Shown here piece after piece: positions 11,403 through 42,467 of a stretch of 42,487 nucleotides of DNA. The stretch comes from a virus. The stretch lies in the IMG/VR virus record IMGVR_UViG_3300021438_000025, positions 1-42,487 of that record; one strand, written 5' to 3'. Numbering within the stretch: the stretch's first letter is position 1; each line of letters begins with the position of its first letter. The position numbers and the translations under genes are program-made. The notes below the pieces were generated by a model, which saw only the letters and a program-made list of their open reading frames with translations, ran no database searches and was not told the DNA's origin.

Positions 11403-12634
11403 TAGTTGCCTCCTAATCTGCCAGATAAAGCAGGGGCTTTAAATTGGTCAAACACCGCGCCTGGTTTACCGCCAACAAATTCAATGGTAGTACGTCCCAT
11501 TGATTCGTGCTTAATTTCGCGTGGCATGGTTGAGCCTGTGTTAATGCTTGGTGATCTTGCAGCTTTCATTGAATCGGCATAAACCGTCGCTTCAATGGCT
11601 TTCAATGTTGACGGGTCATTAATCATGTCAACGTTAGCATCTTTAAACGCTGCGCTGTGTTTCTGATACTTGCGAATAACGCGCTTACGATAAGCCAGCG
11701 GTGTCTCGCCTTGCATCGCACGAACAGCACTGTCGCCAAACGCGTGTGCGACTTCTGCGGCTTTGCCTTCACTGTCTGCTACTTCTTCCATATCGGAGTC
11801 AGATAACACAGCGGGCTTTTCGCACATAGAATCAAGTTTTTTCTCGACTTCGGCTATACGATTAGGTATGTCGTTATCGGCTTCTGCTACAGGTTGAGCG
11901 GGTTCGGCTGCTACTTCGGCTGGAGCGGGTGCAACGTTTGCATCTGCTTTTGCACCTTCCAAAGCGTCTAACCGCTCGCTAATTTTTCCGAGAGCCGCCA
12001 GAATCTGAGCCTGTACGCTCTCCTCTTGTGCCTCGTGTTCTTGGCTTTCAATTACTTCATCTGGCATGGTATCGCCCTCTGTTGTGTTAGTGGATAGATT
12101 TATCCCGTTTGGTTCTTGCCCTTTGTCCCATACACCGCCGTTTTCGGTGATGGCAACATGGTCAATTATTGATGGTTCGCCCTCAATTAGTATTGTTTCG
12201 GGCTTACCGTTTACATCAATTTGTTGTGTTGGCTGCTGTTCGTCAAAAATGACAGTTGGACTTGTTGATAAGCCACCATTTATTATTTTGTTGATAGCAT
12301 CTTGATCGTAGATTTTAGCAATACCCCATACTTCATTGTCTTTAAGATAGGGCAGGAATACAGTGCCGATGATACGGTTGCCAAACTCCTCGCTGTTCAG
12401 TTTGTTGTCGTCTGGATGTTCCCATATCACAGGCAATCCGTTACAACGCGCTAGAAATTCATCATTGAGATATTCCTCAGGTGGACGGTAAACAAATTCA
12501 TCCAGTTTAGAACGATACGCCGCGCCCGTGCCTGTAATCCTAATATCAAACAACACAGCGGCTTCACCCGCACGTTGTGGGCTTGGTAGTTCGCCATTGG
12601 CTATCTGGCGTGCAATGTCAAGTTCTGTAGTCAT
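11402..12634 (-). CDS. Prohead protease-scaffold fusion, DUF2213-like
   Basis: A 410-aa protein in two parts. Residues 1-170 match the DUF2213 protease-like pattern: FDIRITGTGAAYR near the start, YLNDEFLARCNGLPVIWEHPD with a candidate catalytic His, and INGGLSTSPTVIF with a candidate Ser. Residues about 190-290 are acidic and coiled (QILAALGKISERLDALEG, then Ala/Pro-rich, then NRIAEVEKKLDSM), typical of internal scaffolds. I infer that the protein scaffolds head assembly and then cleaves itself and others. No ribosome site precedes the ATG, and a TATAAT lies only 7 bases upstream, so the message may be leaderless. Confidence 0.75.
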   Translation of the reverse strand: MTTELDIARQIANGELPSPQRAGEAAVLFDIRITGTGAAYRSKLDEFVYRPPEEYLNDEFLARCNGLPVIWEHPDDNKLNSEEFGNRIIGTVFLPYLKDNEVWGIAKIYDQDAINKIINGGLSTSPTVIFDEQQPTQQIDVNGKPETILIEGEPSIIDHVAITENGGVWDKGQEPNGINLSTNTTEGDTMPDEVIESQEHEAQEESVQAQILAALGKISERLDALEGAKADANVAPAPAEVAAEPAQPVAEADNDIPNRIAEVEKKLDSMCEKPAVLSDSDMEEVADSEGKAAEVAHAFGDSAVRAMQGETPLAYRKRVIRKYQKHSAAFKDANVDMINDPSTLKAIEATVYADSMKAARSPSINTGSTMPREIKHESMGRTTIEFVGGKPGAVFDQFKAPALSGRLGGN

Positions 12635-12640
12635 TGTTTG

Positions 12641-12672
12641 ATTATAGCACCATGTTATGTTATATCATAACA
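12641..12672 (-). promoter_or_regulatory. Candidate promoter of capsid operon with palindrome
   Basis: On the minus strand a perfect TATAAT (12641-12646) lies 7 bases before the DUF2213-like start, so transcription would begin at or near the A of the ATG. A palindrome TGTTATG-6-CATAACA spans 12653-12672, where a -35 or activator site would be; there is no consensus -35. A terminator sits just upstream, so the capsid operon probably is its own transcription unit that needs an activator. Confidence 0.5.
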
Positions 12673-12681
12673 CATACATGC

Positions 12682-12711
12682 AAAAAAAACGCCTAATTAA
12701 TAGGCGTTTTT
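12682..12711. terminator. Rho-independent terminator, bidirectional
   Basis: Stem AACGCCTA / TAGGCGTT with loop ATTAA. On the minus strand it is followed by a run of eight T, giving a strong terminator after the gene at 12780-13079; on the plus strand the T-run is five. It separates the portal/MuF operon from the capsid operon. Confidence 0.85.
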
Positions 12712-12748
12712 AATCAGTTTTTTGCGGCATTCCAGACTAACTGATTAA
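12710..12748. repeat. 10-bp perfect inverted repeat beside terminator
   Basis: TTAATCAGTT / AACTGATTAA with a 19-base loop, abutting the terminator at 12682-12711. It lies between the stop of the 99-aa gene and the terminator. It may stabilise the 3' end of the message or act with the terminator; no conserved loop blocks of the C1/C2 element are seen. Confidence 0.6.
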
Positions 12749-12779
12749 TGCTTTATAGAACTGTAACTAGCTTAATAAT

Positions 12780-13079
12780 TTAATTTTTTTCGTCTTTTCC
12801 ACCAGTGCGTCTTATATCTTCCCAAGCATCTATATCAGGGTCAAACGCTCCTAAAACTTGTATATTTGTAATTTGCATATCAATTATAAGTAATTCTTTT
12901 TCACGCGCAATTTTACAAATATGAGTTTTTAATAATTGTAAAAACTCGCACCATGCGTCATGATGTGAATCACAATTATACATAAAGCTATCATTAGTAA
13001 AAATACCATAAGAATAACCTTGTGTATTATCATGATAAATACAAGTAGCATGATAAAAAACTGTTTTTCGTGTGTTCAT
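12780..13079 (-). CDS. Hypothetical protein after MuF-like gene
   Basis: A 99-aa protein rich in His, Asp and aromatic residues (YHATCIYHDNTQGYSYGIF, NCDSHHDAW, then AFDPDIDAWEDIRR). It has no membrane segment. Its ATG overlaps the TGA of the MuF-like gene (ATGA), so it is translated with the head genes, but its content does not look like a structural protein. The A+T of the gene appears higher than its neighbours, suggesting a moron. It is the last gene before the terminator at 12682-12711. Function unknown. Confidence 0.65.
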   Translation of the reverse strand: MNTRKTVFYHATCIYHDNTQGYSYGIFTNDSFMYNCDSHHDAWCEFLQLLKTHICKIAREKELLIIDMQITNIQVLGAFDPDIDAWEDIRRTGGKDEKN

Positions 13080-14519: not shown

Positions 14520-17500
14520 TATGCCTTTTTCCAAACCATCAAAGAATCAACTAAATAATCTGGATTGCTTAAGATTTCATCTTGATTTTCAACAAAAAAA
14601 CCTGCTTTATTAAGGTCTTCTATCAATGATTTACGTTTTTCTAAACTCATAAATCCATCGCCTTGTTTTCCAACCATAACAGCATGAAGTGGTTGTTTTA
14701 CGCCTTTAATACCATGAGAAGATACTATTTTTCTTATGTCGGCTGTTTGTTCTTTTGTTGGCTTTACGGTTGCTACGTTCATTTTAGTCTCTCCAGTTGC
14801 CGCCTCGACTTGAGACGTTGGAGATATTAAATCACGATTATCAATTCCTGTCAAATTATTTGTCACTTGCTCGCTTGGCTTTGCTTCTGGCGCGGGTTGC
14901 TTTGGCTCTGCACTTTTTCTTGCTTCAATATAACTTTCTAAATCCATAGCATTAGCAAGTATATTCCCGCCAGTAGTATCAAACTGATTGTTTTTTCTTT
15001 GATTGCCACCGCCACCTTTTCCAGTTGGAGTGTTTTCCAAAGCCTTAAGTGATAATTTTTCGCCTTTGGCTTTCATGTCTTTGTGCATTTTTTCAAGTTC
15101 TGGAATAGTTGCTTTTGCATAATGCTCATTTACATGATGTTCTGATTCTAGCGTGTTCTTTTTTGGGCTGCCTTTTGCTGATTCATATTTTTCTGGGTTG
15201 GCTAATTTATCAGCTTCTTTTTCCTTTGCTCGTTGCTCGTTCATGGCTTTCAATCTTGCCACGCCTTTTAATGGCTCTGCACTCTCAACCTGCTGGGCTT
15301 GGAATGATTCCCTGTCTTTTCGTTGACCTCTTGTTTCCGTGAACATGTCCACAAAACCGCCTGTTTTTTCTGGCTGTTTAGGCGATTCTGGCGCGTTAAT
15401 TTTTGGAGTAATTCCAGCGGCTTGTCTGAAAATATCCATAATGCCAACAGTATCAAGTCCTCCCATTAAATCATTAGTCTGTGCGTGCTCGGCTTGTTGG
15501 TTAATCGCGTCCGCCATGCCTTTAAATACTTGCGTTAGCTTTTTAGGGCTACGCGCATTTTCTGATATAAATAAAGCCATTTCGGCAACGTCTGCTGGGG
15601 TTTCATCTTCGCCAAAAATATTATTTTGTCTCAAATAATCGCCAATACTTAACCCCTTGTTTTTCGCCTCAAGTATTGCATTAGATGCGTCTAATAACAG
15701 ATTAACAGCTTCTTTATCCATCGATATCTTAACACCACTTGCCAAAGTATCGGTCATTACCCCGTGTGCCTGTTCGTTTGATTCTCTAGCCTGAATAAAA
15801 CTACCTGCTGCGCCATTTAACGCGCTTATGATGTTTTTTACGTTCGGGTCCGCATCGTCTACCATTAATTCAAGTAATCTGTCATCATCGTATGCACGCG
15901 AAAATACAGCCGCTTGTACACGGTCATAAATATGTTTGGTTAATTTGCCGCTGGTTGTGTAATATTGTGCCGCTTCTGCATCGCCTAAAGTCTTTAAAAA
16001 TCCTTGAACAAAATCTCGATTATCTTTGCTCATTAGGTCGCCATCGTGCAACTTATCAACTAATGTACTATTGATTTTGTCGCCATCACTACGCGCTTTT
16101 TCCGTAGCTGTCATCGCCATTTTGTCATCTTCGTTGGCTTCTTTAGTGAATATTGAGCGGTCTATATCGGTTTGTCGTTCGCGCACTAATACAGGTTTTT
16201 TCATGCCTTTTATGCTTTCTGGGTCAATTCCTAAACCTGCTGCTTCTTCCTGTAACCACGCCCTATATTCGTCCGCGTGTCCATTTTCATAGGCTGCATT
16301 AATCGCCATTGTCCGACCATTGCCAGATTCCACTACGCCATCTTTGCCGACAATAGGTGCTCCGTTTGCTGCGTCTCTAGTTTTACCTAATTTATCCACA
16401 TCCAGATTTTTAGATGTTTTAGCTACCCATGCCCTGCTAGTTTGTTTTGACCTGTCACGCGGTTGTAATTCACTAGGAAAATCTAAATTAGCATTGCCGT
16501 TGCTATCGTGACTCGTTTTTAACTCTCCAGCGTCTACCACTTTAAAACGGGTTTCTACCTCTGTTCCTTTCGCGGTTTTAACCTTGCTAACATTGCCTAG
16601 CCCCGTTCCATCTTGGTTAAATTGCTGTTTAGGTTCTGCTTTACCGACTGATTGTTTCCAAGCTTGAAAGGCTTGATAGTCTTGACTGCTCACTCCGCCT
16701 ACCTTTTCCTCATTGGTTTCGTATTTAGTAAAATTTTTTGTTCCACCTAAATCACTGATCTTTTTACCTTTCAATCCGCTTGCGCCTTTTTCGATTTGTC
16801 CGCCTGCACCAATAAACACATGGCTGCCGCCGTGCCCTTCTTCACCGCTTTCGCCATTAAGTGTTATCCAGCCATCAGCATACGCCATTGAATCAGCATA
16901 AGTGGGTTGACCTGGTTGCTCTTGTGGTTGCTGCTGTTGCATCATCGCCATTTGTTCAGCTTGTTGTTGCTGGGCTTGTGCTTGTTGTTCGGCTGCATAT
17001 TCAATCAATGCTTGTGTATCAATCTCAAGCGGGTTGGGGAATAACAGCTTATTGTCATTCAGGTTTGATTCTGTCCATTCTAAAACTTTAGCCTGGTTTT
17101 CAGGGTCTAGCTTGTCATACACCGCACCGATTAAGTCAGTGATTGCTTTAAACTTGGTTTCCTCGACTTTGATTAATTCGCTGTCAGGTTCTTTAAGCAG
17201 GTTTTCCCATTCGGCACAAAATGACTTTCTCCAACTATTAAAAGCGGTTTGCCATGATACAGCACCATAGCTCACTGGATATTGTGCTTGTATGGTTGCG
17301 TAAAACTCTGGATTCCATGCTCGATACATGACAATCTGGTCAAAAAAGTCATACAGTGATTGCAATTCGCCTCGAAACCAATCTATATATTCTGCTATTT
17401 CTTTTGCATCTTCCGCGCCCTCTCCAAAGCCCGTTGCAAAAGTTTCATTCGATAACAGCTTAGCGGGTAAGTTTGCTGCCGCTGCTATGTTTTCGAGTAT

Positions 17501-20285: not shown

Positions 20286-20419
20286 CGGTTTTTTATATAG
20301 TCACTGGGTTGTTTACGGTCTTTGTGTTCACGCGGTTTGTTTTTAGTGTACTTGCTATGTAGTTTTGACGCTACGCCTAACAAGTGATAGTTGTATAAAT
20401 TAATCGGCGGTGTGGTCAT
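20282..20419 (-). CDS. Small basic protein downstream of Rha-like gene
   Basis: A 45-aa basic protein (MTTPPINLYNYHLLGVASKL then a Lys/Arg-rich tail KNKPREHKDRKQPSDYIKNR). It is in the gap between the Rha-like gene and the cysteine-rich gene, overlapping both by ATGA, which supports real translation. The tail could bind nucleic acid. No family recognised. Confidence 0.55.
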   Translation of the reverse strand: MTTPPINLYNYHLLGVASKLHSKYTKNKPREHKDRKQPSDYIKNR

Positions 20420-20877
20420 TTATTCCAACCATATAGTTTTTTATTCTCGATTTCCTTTTCTAGTCTGTCCTCAATCCATTTTACATCGTTTCTTAAGTCA
20501 TTAATGGCAACATTCGTTATTGCCTGGTCTTTTTCCAATGCCTGTATTCTATCGTGACTTTCAACCAATGCCCTGGCGTAATCGACTATGGTTAATGGCT
20601 TGTTTTCTAATTCTTGCCAACGGTCAATAATGCGCATTAACAATGCTGTGTTTAGCCTTGCAGATACAGCAATTGATTGTCGCTTGTCTAGTTCATAAGT
20701 TTCGTATTCGTTTCCTTGCGTTGTACGATACGAGCTTTTCGTAACGTTGCCAAACTCTTTATTTTCAATCATTTTTTCAACAATACGCATTGCGTCATTG
20801 TGACGAACACAAAGCAAATCAGTTATTTCTTTCAACGTCATTGTTTGCGAGCTTTTTATTTCAATTAATTCGTTCAT
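20416..20877 (-). CDS. Rha-like phage regulatory protein (1)
   Basis: A 153-aa protein with the Rha-type layout: an N-terminal DNA-binding part TMTLKEITDLLCVRHNDAMRIVEKM, the core YETYELDKRQSIAVSARLN with LLMRIIDRWQELE, a coiled region, and the tail WIEDRLEKEIENKKLYGWNK. The last 20 residues are close to those of the second Rha-like protein at 27437-27928, so the two share a C-terminal module. Rha proteins act as regulators that hinder growth of some temperate phages in certain hosts. A terminator-like hairpin (20909-20958) lies before the gene. It heads the terminase gene cluster. Confidence 0.7.
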   Translation of the reverse strand: MNELIEIKSSQTMTLKEITDLLCVRHNDAMRIVEKMIENKEFGNVTKSSYRTTQGNEYETYELDKRQSIAVSARLNTALLMRIIDRWQELENKPLTIVDYARALVESHDRIQALEKDQAITNVAINDLRNDVKWIEDRLEKEIENKKLYGWNK

Positions 20878-27436: not shown

Positions 27437-27928
27437 TTACTTACGCCAGCCGTAAAGCTTTTTGTTTTCAATTTCTCTTTCGAGTCTGTTTTCTAGCCAA
27501 TGAACATCTGCCCTTTGAGCACCCATCACTTGATGGTTAATTCTGTCGTTATAGACGTGTTGTGCATTCTCTAAAGCTAACTGTTCTTTTTCTTCGGTTA
27601 CTGCTACCAGTTCTTTCAATGCCTCCAAATACGTTGCTGGTAGTTTTTGCTGTTGTTGTGCTTCAAGCTCTTGCCAGCGGTCAACTAGTCTACCTGTAAA
27701 AGCTGGTGACAATTGAGCAACTACAACATAACTGTCTCTTTTGCCAACAAGATAATTTTTGACCATTACACCCTGGCTATTAGGGGTTTCCACCAATGGT
27801 GGAAGCTGAATAATTGCATTTTTTGCCAGTCTTTCAATTGATAATTTAACTGAGTCATGGCGTGATTCAACAAGCTTTGCAATGTCTAAAGATGACATTG
27901 TTAAATCTGCTTTAATTAATTCGTTCAT
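27437..27928 (-). CDS. Rha-like phage regulatory protein (2)
   Basis: A 163-aa protein: TMSSLDIAKLVESRHDSVKL is the N-terminal DNA-binding part, NYLVGKRDSYVVVAQLSPAF and RLVDRWQELEAQ are the Rha core, and VHWLENRLEREIENKKLYGW is a tail shared with the Rha-like protein at 20416-20877 (IEDRLEKEIENKKLYGW). N-terminal parts of the two are more different than the tails. It lies between exonuclease and ssb, behind a terminator-like stem (27946-28010). Confidence 0.8.
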   Translation of the reverse strand: MNELIKADLTMSSLDIAKLVESRHDSVKLSIERLAKNAIIQLPPLVETPNSQGVMVKNYLVGKRDSYVVVAQLSPAFTGRLVDRWQELEAQQQQKLPATYLEALKELVAVTEEKEQLALENAQHVYNDRINHQVMGAQRADVHWLENRLEREIENKKLYGWRK

Positions 27929-29821: not shown

Positions 29822-30009
29822 TTTGTTTCTTCTCTCTCTAAAAATTCTATCAATGCTTGCTCAATAATGCCCGTCACGGTCTTTTTTTGCTTAAGGCATA
29901 TGTTATCTACCCTTTGTCTTAAAATCGCCTCAAATCTAAATATAAAGCGATTCTGAGTATCTGGCGTTCTTTTTCTACCTCCGCCTGGCTTGCGTCGTTT
30001 AATTTCCAA
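29818..30009 (-). CDS. Ribbon-helix-helix DNA-binding protein
   Basis: A 63-aa protein. MEIKRRKPGGGRKRTPDTQN is a basic arm; RFIFRFEAILRQRVDNICLKQKKTVTGIIEQALIEFLERE is strand-helix-helix of the Arc/CopG type (RFEAxLRxxVD... TVTGIIEQAL). It starts with TTG at 30007-30009, within the end of the Ala-rich gene; no ATG fits, and translation may be coupled. It could autoregulate the operon from the promoter at 30577-30605. Confidence 0.65.
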   Translation of the reverse strand: MEIKRRKPGGGRKRTPDTQNRFIFRFEAILRQRVDNICLKQKKTVTGIIEQALIEFLEREETK

Positions 30010-30544
30010 AATTCCAAACCTCGATTGGTATATATTTTCTGCATATATCAGCGGTTAGTTGTCTGTTTTTATTTCTAGCATCATAATAAGCGGCTTCATA
30101 AGCTTCATCAGCAGCTGCATCATAATAAGCGGCTTCATAAGCTTCATCAGCAGCTGCATAAGCTGCATAAGCAGCAGCATAAGCCGCCTCTTTCTCAGCA
30201 GCAACATAAGCAGCTGCATAAGCAGCTGCATAAGCTTCATAAGCAGCATCAGTAGCTTGTTTTAGTTCTTCTATCGTAGCTAATCCATTTCCAAATTTTA
30301 TTGCAACGTCAACTGCGTTTCGTGATCTTTCATCGGTCATCAAATGTCTGACTGTGTTAGCGCAATGTGCTTTTGCTAGCGTCAATAATTGCAATTCGGC
30401 TGGATTAGTACGCTGAAAAAGCCATAACAGCCAATCACCTCGATTACAGTTTTTTACAAAATCCTGCGGTGTATCGAACGAATTGAAATAATCCGCTCCA
30501 TCTCTGCAAGCGTCGTGAATATTTAAATTTTTTAGTGTTGCCAT
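29999..30544 (-). CDS. Ala/Tyr-rich repeat protein, Imm5-like putative immunity family
   Basis: A 181-aa protein. The N-terminal 95 residues, with CRDGADYFNSFDTPQDFV and DWLLWLFQRTNPAELQLLTLAKAHCANTV, match a family I know from many phages as 'putative immunity protein' (DUF resembling Imm5). The rest is an Ala/Tyr helix repeat (AAYAAAY..., then two copies of AADEAYEAAYYDA encoded by a 39-bp tandem duplication). RHLMTDERSRNAVDVAIKFG is also typical. It has its own strong promoter (30577-30605). Function unverified; a defence or immunity role is only a label. Confidence 0.7.
   Translation of the reverse strand: MATLKNLNIHDACRDGADYFNSFDTPQDFVKNCNRGDWLLWLFQRTNPAELQLLTLAKAHCANTVRHLMTDERSRNAVDVAIKFGNGLATIEELKQATDAAYEAYAAAYAAAYVAAEKEAAYAAAYAAYAAADEAYEAAYYDAAADEAYEAAYYDARNKNRQLTADICRKYIPIEVWNFGN
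30078..30155. repeat. 39-bp perfect tandem duplication in coding sequence
   Basis: 30078-30116 is repeated exactly at 30117-30155, 13 codons each, within the Ala/Tyr-rich protein gene. The surrounding 90 bases are built from related short units (GCATAAGCAGCT type). The length is a multiple of three, so changes in copy number keep the frame and change helix length. Confidence 0.9.
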
Positions 30545-30808: not shown

Positions 30809-30830
30809 GTTGTTGATTCCTAAATGCTAG

Positions 30831-31102
<272 letters not shown>

Positions 31103-31117
<15 letters not shown>

Positions 31118-33544
31118 ATAATCATACACTCCCACCCGTTCAGGCATGTAATAAGTCGTTACGCCTTTTGTGTTTCCAATTTTTACACCCAGTTTTATCA
31201 AAATCGGCTTAATCTGGTTTAGCTCTTTTTGTTTTGGCACTTTATCGAAACAAGCCTGGTAAATTTGTGTAGCTGTCATCTTTTTTTCCCACAAATGGCT
31301 ATCAACATCCCAAGCAAACATGGTTTTAATGGCATCATCCATAGGTAACACCGTTTGATGGTTGTTTGAGTTGCGCTCCTGCATTTGTTGCTCGGTATCT
31401 TTATCCAGCCACCACTTAGCACCTGATACATACAAATCACGCACCTGAGACCACAACTGTTGCATATCAATGTTGTGTTCGGTTATGCCTTGCACCTTGA
31501 TTACGCCAAACCTGCGAGAACCAGTGCTATCGTTTAAAAATGCTTCATCATTTACACTGGCACAAAATGAAGTTGATCGTAGATAGGCACACTCAGCGCG
31601 TGCGTAAGGTAGTCGAATAATGTCTTTTTGATTTGAGCAGAACGCTTTTAATGCTGCTATGTCTGACTTCCTAAAAGTAGCATCTAATTCACCTAGCTCA
31701 TTTATCCAGCATGATATGTTTTGCTTAATGCTGTCTTTGTTATCCAGCGAAAGGTTAGAACCATCTTTGATGTACCGATTACTGAAGTTTTGCCCGTTTA
31801 CTTTGTCTGGCAATAACTTTGTAAACCAAGTCGTTTTTTTATGCCCTTGATCGCCTTGCAAGACTAAAATCAATTCATACTTAGCACGCGCATTAGGGTT
31901 TATTCGGCATCCAATTACACCCTTATCCAATGCTGCTATACACTGGATTAACCACGTTTTGATAATCTCACAAGACAATACCCTATCTTCTGGCGCAACT
32001 ATCAAACTTTTGCATAACTCGTTTATTCTGTCCTTACCGTCCCATTTTTCAGAGTTAATCCAATCTTTAACAGGGTTTATTGTGTTTTCGGTTAGGATAA
32101 TCGGCAATCTTTCGATAATCCGTCCGTCAATCCTGTTTAACGCTGCTAAATCATAAAGCTGCTGTAGACAAGTTTCATTGTGTAGGTCGTGGGTAATGGT
32201 GTGGCGACTATCGATAATAATTTGCTGTGATTTGATCGCCTCATCGTAAATAGCTGCGATACCGTAGGCATTCAGCAATATTTGCAAATTGGTTTTAGTG
32301 GGCATAACCGTTTTAATTTTGCCTTTTTCATCATACAAAACATCGGAAAAAATTGAGGGCGGCAAAGGAATATTGAGCTGGTAACATTCGCGGTCTATAA
32401 AATCATCGTAAACCTGCACTGTTTTTTTTAGAATCGTGTAAACACGGCCGCCGTGTGCCTGGCTGTTAATCTTTGGCTTGCCATCATTCCAGTAAAACTT
32501 AGCCTTGGTTAGGCTTCCTCCATCATAACCTGGTTCGTTTGGGTCTGCCATCGTTAAACCGTCGTGCGACTTGTTTAACTCTCCAACTGTCATCAATCCG
32601 TTGCTGGTCAATACAGTGAAGTCGTGCATTAATTCTCCACGTCCTAACGCTTGCCAATCTCTTTCAGTCTTGCCAGTTGCTAAAAATTCACGTTTTTTGA
32701 CCTCGGTAACTTTCTCAAACTCTGGACGCACTTTTAAAGCCGATTCGCGGATTGCCTGTTTAGAAGCGTTTATTTCTTCGGGCGTTAAATCTTTGATAAT
32801 GGTTGTATCCAGTACATCACCATCAACTACCGTCGCATGATTGTATTTTTGTACTAATCCATCGTTTAAAATCGGTTTTGCCTCAAATGCCAATCTTTCA
32901 GACTTACCCAATACTGACAAATCAAATAAGCCGCGCTCTAACAAGGCAGGATGTATGCCTGCTCTAATCAGGTGATAACCATGCCCAGCTATCCACATCC
33001 GCGCCCACAAGATAGCCGCTATCCTTGGCACGTCCGCCATGCTCTTAACTGGTATATAAATATGCCGTCCTTTTTCACCTATCAACTCATTGCCGTTTTT
33101 GTCATAAATTAGGCTAGAGCTTGATGGTTTGACCACCGCGCCAATACCCGCCAATTCAGGGACAAACGCAACCAAATCGCTTAATGTGCCTGTATTGCCA
33201 TCAATATCAAACAGCATAAACCCTGGTGTGTTTAAGTTCTGAATGTGTCTTTTTGACCTAGATACTGATTTATCGGTTTCTTTGTCTTTAAGGCACAATC
33301 CAATCTTTTCACCTACCGCTAATACCGTGCCGTCTAAGCGCACAATAGAGCCTAAGATAATAGATTGTTTAACGGTTATTTTATTCAGTGCGTCCGCAAA
33401 CTCTTGTAAAGATTCGACAGAATGCGTAGTAAATCGCCCGTTAGTGGCGTTAGCAAATGACGCTTTAACTATCTGTCCATCAACTAGCGATAAGGTTTTA
33501 GCCTGGTTTGTGCTAGTTGTTAAAACTGAGTAATGAAGTGTCAT
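31103..33544 (-). CDS. VapE-type primase-helicase
   Basis: An 813-aa replication protein. The N-terminal part looks like an archaeo-eukaryotic primase: MLFDIDGNTG (Asp pair at 113-115) and KGRHIYIPV (H161). Residues about 480-740 are the VapE-type helicase: NPVKDWINSEKWDGKDRI, a Walker A variant LQGDQGHKKTTWF (564-572) and a Walker B-like CWINELGEL, then SFCASVNDEAFLNDSTGSRRF (sensor/arginine finger). ATG 33542-33544 follows GGAGAATTAAC; an upstream longer frame would add 27 unrelated residues. It would prime and unwind at the adjacent origin-like region. Confidence 0.85.
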
Positions 33545-37030: not shown

Positions 37031-37728
37031 AACTAGAAATAGAAAACCATCTGCCAGACGGTGTCGAACTAACAACGGGCAACCCTGAATCGATTAATTT
37101 TGATGGTGATAAATCACACGTCATTATGAGGTTTGCTGTTAAACCGATTGAACCAGAACCAGACCAACATGCAGAACTAAAAGCACAATACGCCCAAGAC
37201 GTTGAGACGTGCAAGTCGATTGATGATCTTGAGGCTTGTCAGTTGTGGCAAAATTTATGCGTAGATAAATGGTATGACTATGAACCTGGAGATGAGCCAA
37301 GATTTTATACTAATATGATTTACCGCCGTCATCCACATGCTGACAAAATCATCGAATATCACAAATGCAGTGATGCCGATAAAAACCGCTGGCAAGTGCT
37401 GAATGCGTTAGATAACTGGGCGAATTTAAACAGTAAGCCAGAATGGGATGAAAATTATCAATACCGCCTAAAACCACGCACAATAACAATCGTGGTCAAC
37501 GGCGAAAGCAAAGAATACAATGCGCCGCTGAATGTTGCTCCTGTTTTTGGTGCCGAATATTGGGTGATTGAATTTTCGTTTGCTTTTGGGTTTTATCCTA
37601 ATTCAAAAGAATGGTTAGAAAGTGAGCTTGATATTTCCGCATTGCAAGAAAGTCATGTGTTTTCAACACAAGAAGACGCCGACAGAGTAGCAGATGCTTT
37701 TAATCAAATACTGGCAGGTGCTAATTGA
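37027..37728 (+). CDS. 233-aa early-operon protein, WYDY/YRLKP type
   Basis: The last and largest early product. ACQLWQNLCVDKWYDYEPGD then NWANLNSKPEWDENYQYRLKPRTITIVVNG is a motif seen in repeated form in several phage proteins of unknown role, where a W/Y-rich pair precedes YRxKP and a strand. The C-terminal 60 residues (WVIEFSFAFGFYPNSKEWLE...) may be another beta-rich copy. The TGA stop lies inside the -35 box of the RNA gene promoter. Function unknown. Confidence 0.65.
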   Translation: MKLEIENHLPDGVELTTGNPESINFDGDKSHVIMRFAVKPIEPEPDQHAELKAQYAQDVETCKSIDDLEACQLWQNLCVDKWYDYEPGDEPRFYTNMIYRRHPHADKIIEYHKCSDADKNRWQVLNALDNWANLNSKPEWDENYQYRLKPRTITIVVNGESKEYNAPLNVAPVFGAEYWVIEFSFAFGFYPNSKEWLESELDISALQESHVFSTQEDADRVADAFNQILAGAN

Positions 37729-37753
37729 CACCAGCAAATAAATAACAGATAAT
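37725..37753 (+). promoter_or_regulatory. Strong sigma70 promoter of the ncRNA gene
   Basis: TTGACA (37725-37730, perfect), a spacer of exactly 17 bases and GATAAT (37748-37753, five of six). The start would be about 37760, right at the 5' arm of the closing stem of the RNA. The stop codon of the previous gene is part of the -35 box. This is the best promoter in the window. Confidence 0.85.
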
Positions 37754-37759
37754 TTAAAT

Positions 37760-37956
37760 ACTTATTAACGGCGTTGAACGTGAAACGCGCGGGAACGGGG
37801 TCAAAGCCCAAAAGCCTGGATAGTGACGTGTAGAGCGTCTTAGTTTATCAGTAATGACAAATGAAACTGTGTCTTAAACAGCCTATCGTGTAGAAATACT
37901 TAATAAGTAAAAATTATTAAACCCGCGTGTTTAGAATATGATGACGCGGGTTTTTT
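37760..37956 (+). ncRNA. Stand-alone structured non-coding RNA, about 195 nt
   Basis: Lies between its own promoter and terminator and has no useful reading frame. A perfect 10-bp closing stem joins TACTTATTAA (37759-37768) to TTAATAAGTA (37900-37909). Inside are a hairpin GCGTT-8-AACGC (37771-37788), a GGG-7-CCC hairpin (37797-37809), a 5-bp stem GATAG (37819-37823) / CTATC (37883-37887), GACG-7-CGTC (37825-37839) and a hairpin with a GTAA tetraloop (around 37850). Two copies of CGTGTAGA-N4-CTTA lie exactly 60 bases apart (37827 and 37887). Family not recognised. Confidence 0.75.
37919..37956 (+). terminator. Rho-independent terminator of ncRNA / early operon
   Basis: Stem ACCCGCGT (37921-37928) / ACGCGGGT (37944-37951), 15-base loop, then TTTTTT. 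It ends the RNA gene and any early transcript reading through, and lies 70 bases from the end of the converging late operon, for which it could also serve weakly. Confidence 0.9.
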
Positions 37957-38026
37957 ATTGTCTAAAATAAATAGTGCAAATAACACACAGCCAATAAAAC
38001 AAATATTTTAATGACTGTTCATGCAG

Positions 38027-38467
38027 TCATTCCATGTCAAATGGCGGTAATGCTTTCAATGCCATTTCTACACTGTCATATTTTTTAACACCGTTTTTAA
38101 TGTCAGTTTGGATCGCATGACACGATTCAACCCAGTCCCAAATAGCACGAGCTTCTACTTTGTAAGTGTCTGATAAAAGAGCATAAGCCGCTATTTCTCC
38201 TAAGCTGTCATAATCCCAGCCATTTGATTTAATACAACTAGCAATGTGCGCATCAATCGCGCTGTATTGTTCTGCTGGTAAATTAAAGTCATCAATCAAT
38301 GATTTAGGCTTTTCAAACTTTTTACCGTTGCAAAACATGCCCACGCATACATTATCATCACATTCTACAAATGTTTTAATTAAATCAGGATGGAACTGAT
38401 TTTCTATATTATCGCTTTCAATAATTTCAACAACAACGTTTTCTTGTACTCTTGCAAACTTTTTCAT
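38027..38467 (-). CDS. Tail fibre assembly-like protein
   Basis: A 146-aa protein, last of the late operon. MKKFARVQENVVVEIIESDN and FVECDDNVCVGMFCNGKKFE fit the N-terminal domain of tail fibre assembly chaperones (ARIQxGxVVEI ... W/MxYxxGxFxxP). The C-terminal part is helical with EARAIWDWVESCHAI. Located directly after the fibre gene with overlapping stop/start. It may help fold the fibre or be its receptor-binding partner. Confidence 0.65.
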   Translation of the reverse strand: MKKFARVQENVVVEIIESDNIENQFHPDLIKTFVECDDNVCVGMFCNGKKFEKPKSLIDDFNLPAEQYSAIDAHIASCIKSNGWDYDSLGEIAAYALLSDTYKVEARAIWDWVESCHAIQTDIKNGVKKYDSVEMALKALPPFDME

Positions 38468-39750
38468 TAACTATACTCCCACACTATAACCACACCCTGC
38501 GCCCCTGCTCCACCCTGTCTTGGTGTTGCACTTCCTGATAAATCACCACCACCAGAACCACCAGCTCCATAACCCGTTGCGGCTATACCATTTTGGCTGC
38601 CACTGTATCCGCGTCCAGACGTGCCATAAGGACTATCACCGCCTCGACCCGTTAAATTTCCAGTCTGAAATATATAGCCTGGCAATCCCCCCATTCCTGT
38701 TATAGCAAGAATATTCGCACCAGTTGGAGCACTGCCGTTTGATGATGAACCTTGAACGCCAATGGCTGTTGATGTTGACGCGGCAAGACCGCCACCACCA
38801 CCAGTACCACCAGGGCAAGACAGCAACGCACCAAAAGAAGTCGTACCACCGTTACCGCCTGGTTGATTACCCGCTGTGCCTGGTGTACCACCTGCTCCCA
38901 CTGTAACCGTTACACCAGAAAACGCGCTTGTATATTTTCCTTTACCGTATGCACCCGCCACGCCGCCGCCCCCCGCCGCCGCATTGCCTGCCGAAGCACC
39001 TGAGCAACTCCCTCCAGCTCCACCACCACCTACAGCTTCAACAATAACGTAATTCGTGCCTGCTGTCGGGGTATACGTTGCAGTTCCTACAGTCGAAAAA
39101 ATCTGATAATTAATCAACCCGCCTTGCGTGGCTGGATTTTGAAGCAAGACTTTATCGAGTGTTGAACTATATTTAAACTCGGCAATCATACCAACAGCCA
39201 AATCGCCTACTTTTAAAGCCACGCCGTTGATTTTAACAATTGTCTTAGCTGTTAAACCGTTAGGGCTAATAGTTGGGGTCGTTGTCGTATTAGCTGCCGT
39301 AATCTTAGCAAAGAACGTCATGCCATCAACCCACGCCGCATAAACAGGCGCATAGGTTGCTGTTATTGCGTCCGATGTACCGCCAGCCGTTACAGAGTTG
39401 ATTGTGTTATTCTGCACTTGCGGAGCTTGTAGCATTGCGTTTGCGCTGTTTTTAGTCCACATATTTACTGCAAAATCACCCGCATTCCATGCTAGTGCAG
39501 TCGTCCCTTCTTGGGCTCTAACAATAGTTACAACATCGCCTACCACTGCAATGCCGTGTACAATCTCATTAATTAACCCTGTTGCCTGGTCGGTAAAAGT
39601 GAGCTTAAAATATTCTCCAATTGCGTTGTTCGGGTTGGGGAATAAAACGCCCGTGCCTGTTGCCAATGTAACCGATGTTGCAACGGCTGTTATTGAGCCG
39701 CTAACGGTTGATCTTGCATTATTGGCAAATAATAGAACTGTTTGTGCCAT
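38467..39750 (-). CDS. Tail fibre with glycine-rich adhesin domain
   Basis: A 427-aa fibre. Residues 1-100 (VTLATGTGVLFPNPN, VTIVRAQEGTTALAWNAGD) are a baseplate-side domain common in small fibres. Residues 210-427 are very rich in Gly (AVGGGGAGGS, GGTGGGGGLAAS, GAGGSGGGDLS) and end GAQGVVIVWEYS, the known signature of glycine-rich tip domains like T4-like S16 gp38, which form polyglycine sandwiches and bind receptors. So host recognition is likely here, and the domain is expected to vary. Confidence 0.85.
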   Translation of the reverse strand: MAQTVLLFANNARSTVSGSITAVATSVTLATGTGVLFPNPNNAIGEYFKLTFTDQATGLINEIVHGIAVVGDVVTIVRAQEGTTALAWNAGDFAVNMWTKNSANAMLQAPQVQNNTINSVTAGGTSDAITATYAPVYAAWVDGMTFFAKITAANTTTTPTISPNGLTAKTIVKINGVALKVGDLAVGMIAEFKYSSTLDKVLLQNPATQGGLINYQIFSTVGTATYTPTAGTNYVIVEAVGGGGAGGSCSGASAGNAAAGGGGVAGAYGKGKYTSAFSGVTVTVGAGGTPGTAGNQPGGNGGTTSFGALLSCPGGTGGGGGLAASTSTAIGVQGSSSNGSAPTGANILAITGMGGLPGYIFQTGNLTGRGGDSPYGTSGRGYSGSQNGIAATGYGAGGSGGGDLSGSATPRQGGAGAQGVVIVWEYS

Positions 39751-42136: not shown

Positions 42137-42466
42137 TCAAATCGGGACTTGCACGATTAAACTACTACCCTGCTGTGTGGTCACGTTCACGTTATAACAC
42201 GGGTAAGGCTGTTCTAATTGCTGGATAGACATAGCACTAAAGAACTGTGCGAATTGATCTTGTACACGTTGCACATAGTAAGTAGGAAAAATAGAACTTA
42301 CTATCGACTCATGCGCAGGTATTCCATAATTTGCAAAAAAAGGGGACTCCCCTAAATTCAGATTAAGCACCTGGGCAACATTGGTAATGTATACCGCATC
42401 ATTAAATCCTTTGTCATCGGTCGTTACTTCCTGCCAAACGCCTGCTACTCTGCCCCATACTCTCAT
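42137..42466 (-). CDS. Baseplate wedge protein, gp25/gpW-like
   Basis: A 109-aa protein of the T4 gp25 lysozyme-like fold family that starts sheath assembly. MRVWGRVAGVWQEVTTDDKG then VYITNVAQVLNLNLGESPFF fits the common pattern NLxLxxGEW/Sxxxxxx, followed by helices SIVSSIFPTYYVQRVQDQF. The first 125 bases of the window repeat its 5' part. In this copy the upstream 20 bases (ACAGGAGTACCAGT ATG) differ from those at 126-145, but also hold a ribosome site, so both variants could be expressed. Confidence 0.8.
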   Translation of the reverse strand: MRVWGRVAGVWQEVTTDDKGFNDAVYITNVAQVLNLNLGESPFFANYGIPAHESIVSSIFPTYYVQRVQDQFAQFFSAMSIQQLEQPYPCYNVNVTTQQGSSLIVQVPI

Positions 42467-42467
42467 A
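42342..42467. repeat. Terminal direct repeat, right copy
   Basis: Identical to 1-126. It is followed by 20 bases (42468-42487) that do not match 127-146. Read on the minus strand, those bases encode SQTGVPV and a stop that overlaps the wedge start, similar to the C-terminus SGVPVP of the spike gene at the other end. Confidence 0.95.

Follow-up and report, generated by a model that had tools for sequence, protein, structure and literature searches.

The segment at 37725-37956 on the plus strand of virus record IMGVR_UViG_3300021438_000025 is best explained as an RNA moron, an accessory gene standing on its own that would specify an RNA of approximately 197 nt acting in trans and likely having a protein partner; the probability of this reading is put at about 0.5. 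The window analysed was the whole stretch of 42,487 bases. Its first 126 bases recur at 42342-42467 (the last 20 bases differ), so the contig represents almost the full circle, approximately 42.3 kb. The locus sits between an operon of small, densely packed plus-strand ORFs, which stops upstream of it at 37728, and tail-fibre genes on the minus strand (38027-39750), which converge on it and end at 38027. Several other features were recorded in the genome. On the minus strand, several TACCCCCACC-like repeats with a long run of T next to them (30820-31120) adjoin the gene for a VapE-type primase/helicase and may be a replication origin; an intergenic segment at 12630-12790 (z = -3.9) contains strong hairpins, among them a long stem that resembles a terminator; and two genes (20416-20877 and 27437-27928) match the phage regulatory protein Rha family. 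Tandem repeats at 30055-30265, with an identical 39-bp unit and a degenerate 21-bp unit, lie within an alanine/tyrosine-rich ORF (29999-30544).

The promoter reported in the initial annotation, of sigma-70 type, was present on the plus strand at 37725-37753, where TTGACA (37725-37730) and GATAAT (37748-37753) are separated by a 17-nt spacer and match 11 of the 12 consensus bases; the preceding gene has its stop codon (37726-37728) within the -35 box. Five promoters in the genome reach 11/12 and three have the TTGACA-17 spacing, the promoter of the RNA being among them in both cases. From the position of the -10 box, transcription is predicted to start at about 37760, and with the end taken from the terminator the predicted non-coding transcript of approximately 197 nt spans 37760-37956 on the plus strand. 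Within it, no plus-strand ORF of at least 20 aa was found, consistent with the earlier remark that the segment lacks a good reading frame. The intrinsic terminator noted at 37919-37956 (plus strand) was also found, with a 10-bp stem (37919-37928/37944-37953) followed by T; the routine terminator scan, covering loops of 3-8 only, does not list it. It possesses an A-rich 5′ flank and A-U pairs below the stem (AAAAAUUAUUAAACCCGCG), and because the flank is A-rich the terminator may also halt the converging minus-strand tail operon.

The body of the RNA is closed by a stem, P1, which on the DNA consists of 10 Watson-Crick pairs between TACTTATTAA (37759-37768) and TTAATAAGTA (37900-37909), both read on the plus strand. 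This stem had been described as perfect, as it is, with a 5′ arm beginning at the predicted start of 37760; the arm instead begins one base earlier, at 37759, and nine of the pairs (37760-37768/37900-37908) fall inside a transcript from 37760. A stem of at least 9 pairs joining both ends of the body was obtained in none of 5000 shuffles. Enclosed by P1, also on the plus strand, are a predicted hairpin at 37771-37788 (GCGUU/AACGC, loop GAACGUGA; mean pair probability 0.97), a predicted two-part hairpin at 37790-37818, in which an internal loop separates CGGG/CCUG (0.95) from GGGU/GCCC (0.94), a predicted three-hairpin domain at 37819-37887 closed by GAUAG/CUAUC (0.87 for the closing helix and 0.69-0.96 for the hairpins), and, beside P1, a predicted GAAA-loop hairpin at 37888-37899 (GUA-GAAA-UAC; 0.63). 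The inner hairpins seen previously, including the GTAA tetraloop, which belongs to the three-hairpin domain (GUAA at 37851-37854, in UCA-GUAA-UGA), were found in both the MFE and the MEA structures, which agree on P1 and the inner hairpins with mean pair probabilities of 0.63-0.97.

The body folds with an energy that is unremarkable in this genome, ranking 72nd among 850 genome windows by GC-corrected energy, and weak against shuffles (z = -1.76 for the body alone, with 11 of 200 shuffles; z = -3.48 with promoter and terminator included). The scan for this arrangement required a promoter matching 9/12 or better, then a perfect stem (8 bp or longer) whose 5′ arm starts 5-10 bases past the -10 box, and a terminator no further than 40 bases from the other arm. 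This ordered set occurs at one site in the whole 42.5-kb window; it was absent from both strands of 40 randomised genomes, generated as a first-order Markov chain that keeps the dinucleotide frequencies of the window though not the exact counts, and from 1.56 Mb of comparison loci, which include related viruses but also the chance-match loci. Because the fold is ordinary while the ordered set is unmatched in random sequence, the real signal is the fit of the parts, not the stability of the fold. From the fit of promoter, stem and terminator, the initial annotation had taken an independent small RNA gene as the simplest reading, and so do we: the observation as a whole is real and the reading as a non-coding gene likely.

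The RNA had not been recognised as belonging to any class, and with Rfam covariance models at the gathering threshold no family matched, including group I intron, 6S, tmRNA and CRISPR repeats. Lax filters yielded weak matches mostly centred on the terminator, the best being AaHKsRNA82 with 30.1 bits against a threshold of 51.4, and no CRISPR family was reported at E up to 10. The segment GCGGGAACGGGGUCAA, which we take to resemble a P4-P5 segment of group I introns, had pointed to such an intron, but that Rfam family did not match and the candidate was dropped, as was a late-gene leader like lambda 6S, because no plus-strand late genes lie downstream. A search for a retron partner revealed no reverse transcriptase domain in 29 window proteins, most larger ORFs included (Pfam). 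No blastn match was found in plasmids or in E. coli, and phages gave just short partial matches (E of at least 0.1).

The matches from exact-pattern scans (four viral and one genome) were regarded as chance, and the 16 that were tabulated have nothing in common beyond the pattern and a few bases. L002 and L003 lie in an apparent tRNA gene on the opposite strand, and L008-L014 (genome) and L015-L022 (viral) show the same limited likeness. A covariance model built from the single sequence, and hence able to find fairly close relatives only, gave one match in 34 further pattern loci (L108, 18.2 bits); it lies away from the pattern site, has a broken P1 and many non-standard pairs, and was judged to be chance. 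With the same model, no convincing match was obtained in 50 whole virus records (48 from IMG/VR and two phage isolates; best E 0.23) or in samples of 369, 392 and 398 bacterial genomes (approximately 1,160 draws with slight overlap). These samples were drawn around a Pseudomonadales MAG that was picked through a chance match and not by host, and the records nearest the window were possibly left out of the searched collections. Since no relative was found, membership of a known RNA class is improbable, and the RNA is probably an accessory RNA of putative function. The lack of homologues leaves the gene without backing from covariation or conservation and counts against it, whereas the architecture, the closing stem (0/5000) and the ORF-free body count for it.

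The nearest relative found, G001 (locus L004), resembles the window at approximately 82% in the DNA of the tail genes and at 93% in the baseplate J protein. It carries a homologue of the gene that immediately precedes the RNA (50% identity), with other small genes between this and the tail genes, and is without the RNA at the equivalent site, this being the one close relative available for comparison. Its best local similarity to 37729-38030 consists of 22 bases leading into the terminator, 18 of them identical, and the 5′ flank of the terminator appears to be common to the operon terminators of both phages. At 15565-15668 on the minus strand of L004, the unrelated 3′ end of an operon folds unusually well (z = -5.2); a near-perfect hairpin stands there before the terminator. 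In the simplest history, the operon terminator would be shared, and the promoter and RNA body would have been placed upstream of it here or lost in L004; because a single close relative was compared, and fits either, insertion and loss cannot be told apart.

This folded end in L004, at an equivalent place and with a terminator of similar 5′ flank, is the best support for reading the locus as simply the 3′-UTR of the preceding operon, in which hairpins and terminator would stabilise the mRNA and the likeness to a promoter would be due to chance. Promoter-like matches are indeed common in the region (6 found versus 5.1 expected), and the body folds no better than many windows; however, an 11/12 promoter with a 17-nt spacer, a perfect stem and a terminator were unmatched as a set in randomised sequence, and the closing stem links the predicted start to the end, leaving this explanation on the improbable side. 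Considerably less probable is a regulated switch, in which a possible anti-terminator segment at 37783-37793 (plus strand), an 11-bp complement of the 5′ arm of the terminator (37922-37932), would pair with that arm and permit read-through antisense to the tail-fibre genes (38027-39750), limiting tail-fibre production or a superinfecting phage. Such complementarity was equalled by just 2 of 1000 body shuffles, the tail-fibre genes do come next in antisense, and STnc6030 offers a precedent (PMC12197685), but the helix was spotted post hoc, the fold forced to contain it lies 6.3 kcal/mol above the MFE (terminator) fold, the 5′ hairpins would form first during transcription, and no plus-strand gene lies downstream.

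Being stand-alone, promoter-driven and accessory, the locus recalls the Racrs (PMC10651486), and the RNA might act in counter-defence as a decoy of a host defence substrate, e.g. a CRISPR repeat (Racr) or a type III antitoxin. This is unlikely, as the Rfam matches were weak and mostly in the terminator region, no internal repeat copies were seen, and none of the ten proteins tested with PADLOC provided a defence-like neighbour. The inverted repeat (37759-37768/37900-37909) and the absence of the segment from L004 would also suit a feature of the DNA itself, such as terminal inverted repeats of a small mobile element, an origin or a packaging site, with the fold as a by-product; yet the paired arms have no further exact copy and near copies at chance level only, the segment is single-copy and no target-site duplication is visible, making this very unlikely indeed.

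On the preferred reading of an RNA moron, the accessory RNA gene lies between the last gene of the small-ORF operon and the terminator of that operon, and we infer that host RNA polymerase would transcribe it from its own sigma-70 promoter, which would permit expression independent of the phage operons. The product would be a compact RNA of approximately 197 nt with its ends locked together and its 3′ end shielded by the terminator, and would act in trans inside the host, most likely together with a protein; candidates are a chaperone of the ProQ/FinO type and a host factor occupied by the RNA. A protein partner is favoured because the 5′ end is paired in the predicted fold and no convincing target emerged: when pairing with the starts of phage genes was computed with internal structure ignored, the best value was reached by 6 of 60 shuffles and was not significant. 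The paired 5′ end in the model thus speaks mildly against a seed-type base-pairing RNA. It is rather unlikely that the locus encodes a protein-binding structured RNA of a new class, for example one that inhibits a defence or regulatory protein of the host, in the form of a cassette of promoter and RNA set upstream of the operon terminator. The early action and the role against host or defence functions proposed in the initial annotation are unsupported.

Small non-coding RNAs of phages are few and were mostly discovered by RNA-seq in model phages. Here, a cassette of promoter, closed body and terminator could be read from sequence alone in an uncultivated phage, which suggests that annotation, by seeking proteins only, may miss non-coding morons. 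Should the RNA bind a host protein, it could readily be used to find that target.

Among the known systems, prophage BTP1 has STnc6030, an RNA that runs antisense to the tailspike mRNA and prevents superinfection (reviewed in PMC12197685); the locus would resemble it only if transcription reads through, antisense into the tail-fibre genes, whereas the predicted RNA stops before them. PreS of lambda and VpdS of VP882, both Hfq-bound regulatory RNAs (PMC12197685), are likewise small phage-encoded non-coding RNAs, but the 5′ end of the RNA described here is closed in a predicted stem. Racrs are small phage RNAs that often follow a predicted promoter directly and lie apart from cas genes (PMC10651486); as a short phage RNA predicted directly after a promoter, the present one is similar, although it has no match to a CRISPR-repeat family in Rfam and its predicted fold is far more elaborate. 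Ligands of ProQ reportedly have A-U pairs at the foot of the terminator stem and a 5′ flank rich in A (PMC12001967). The terminator in the window has both features, a sequence hint of such a ligand, but a two-way terminator would be expected to show them just as well.

Described morons are mostly protein genes. The marks of such loci include an own promoter and an accessory position, and transcription from an own promoter antisense to lytic genes has been described as a mark of accessory loci (PMC7067206). As to an own terminator, one is present here, but its 5′ flank is apparently common with the L004 operon terminator. The locus differs from phage morons in having no ORF, and it seems to be like them, as far as sequence can tell, in its promoter (11/12, optimal spacing), its accessory position and its absence from L004. 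Thus, the locus fits an RNA moron because it has its own promoter, is absent from L004 and is not translated.
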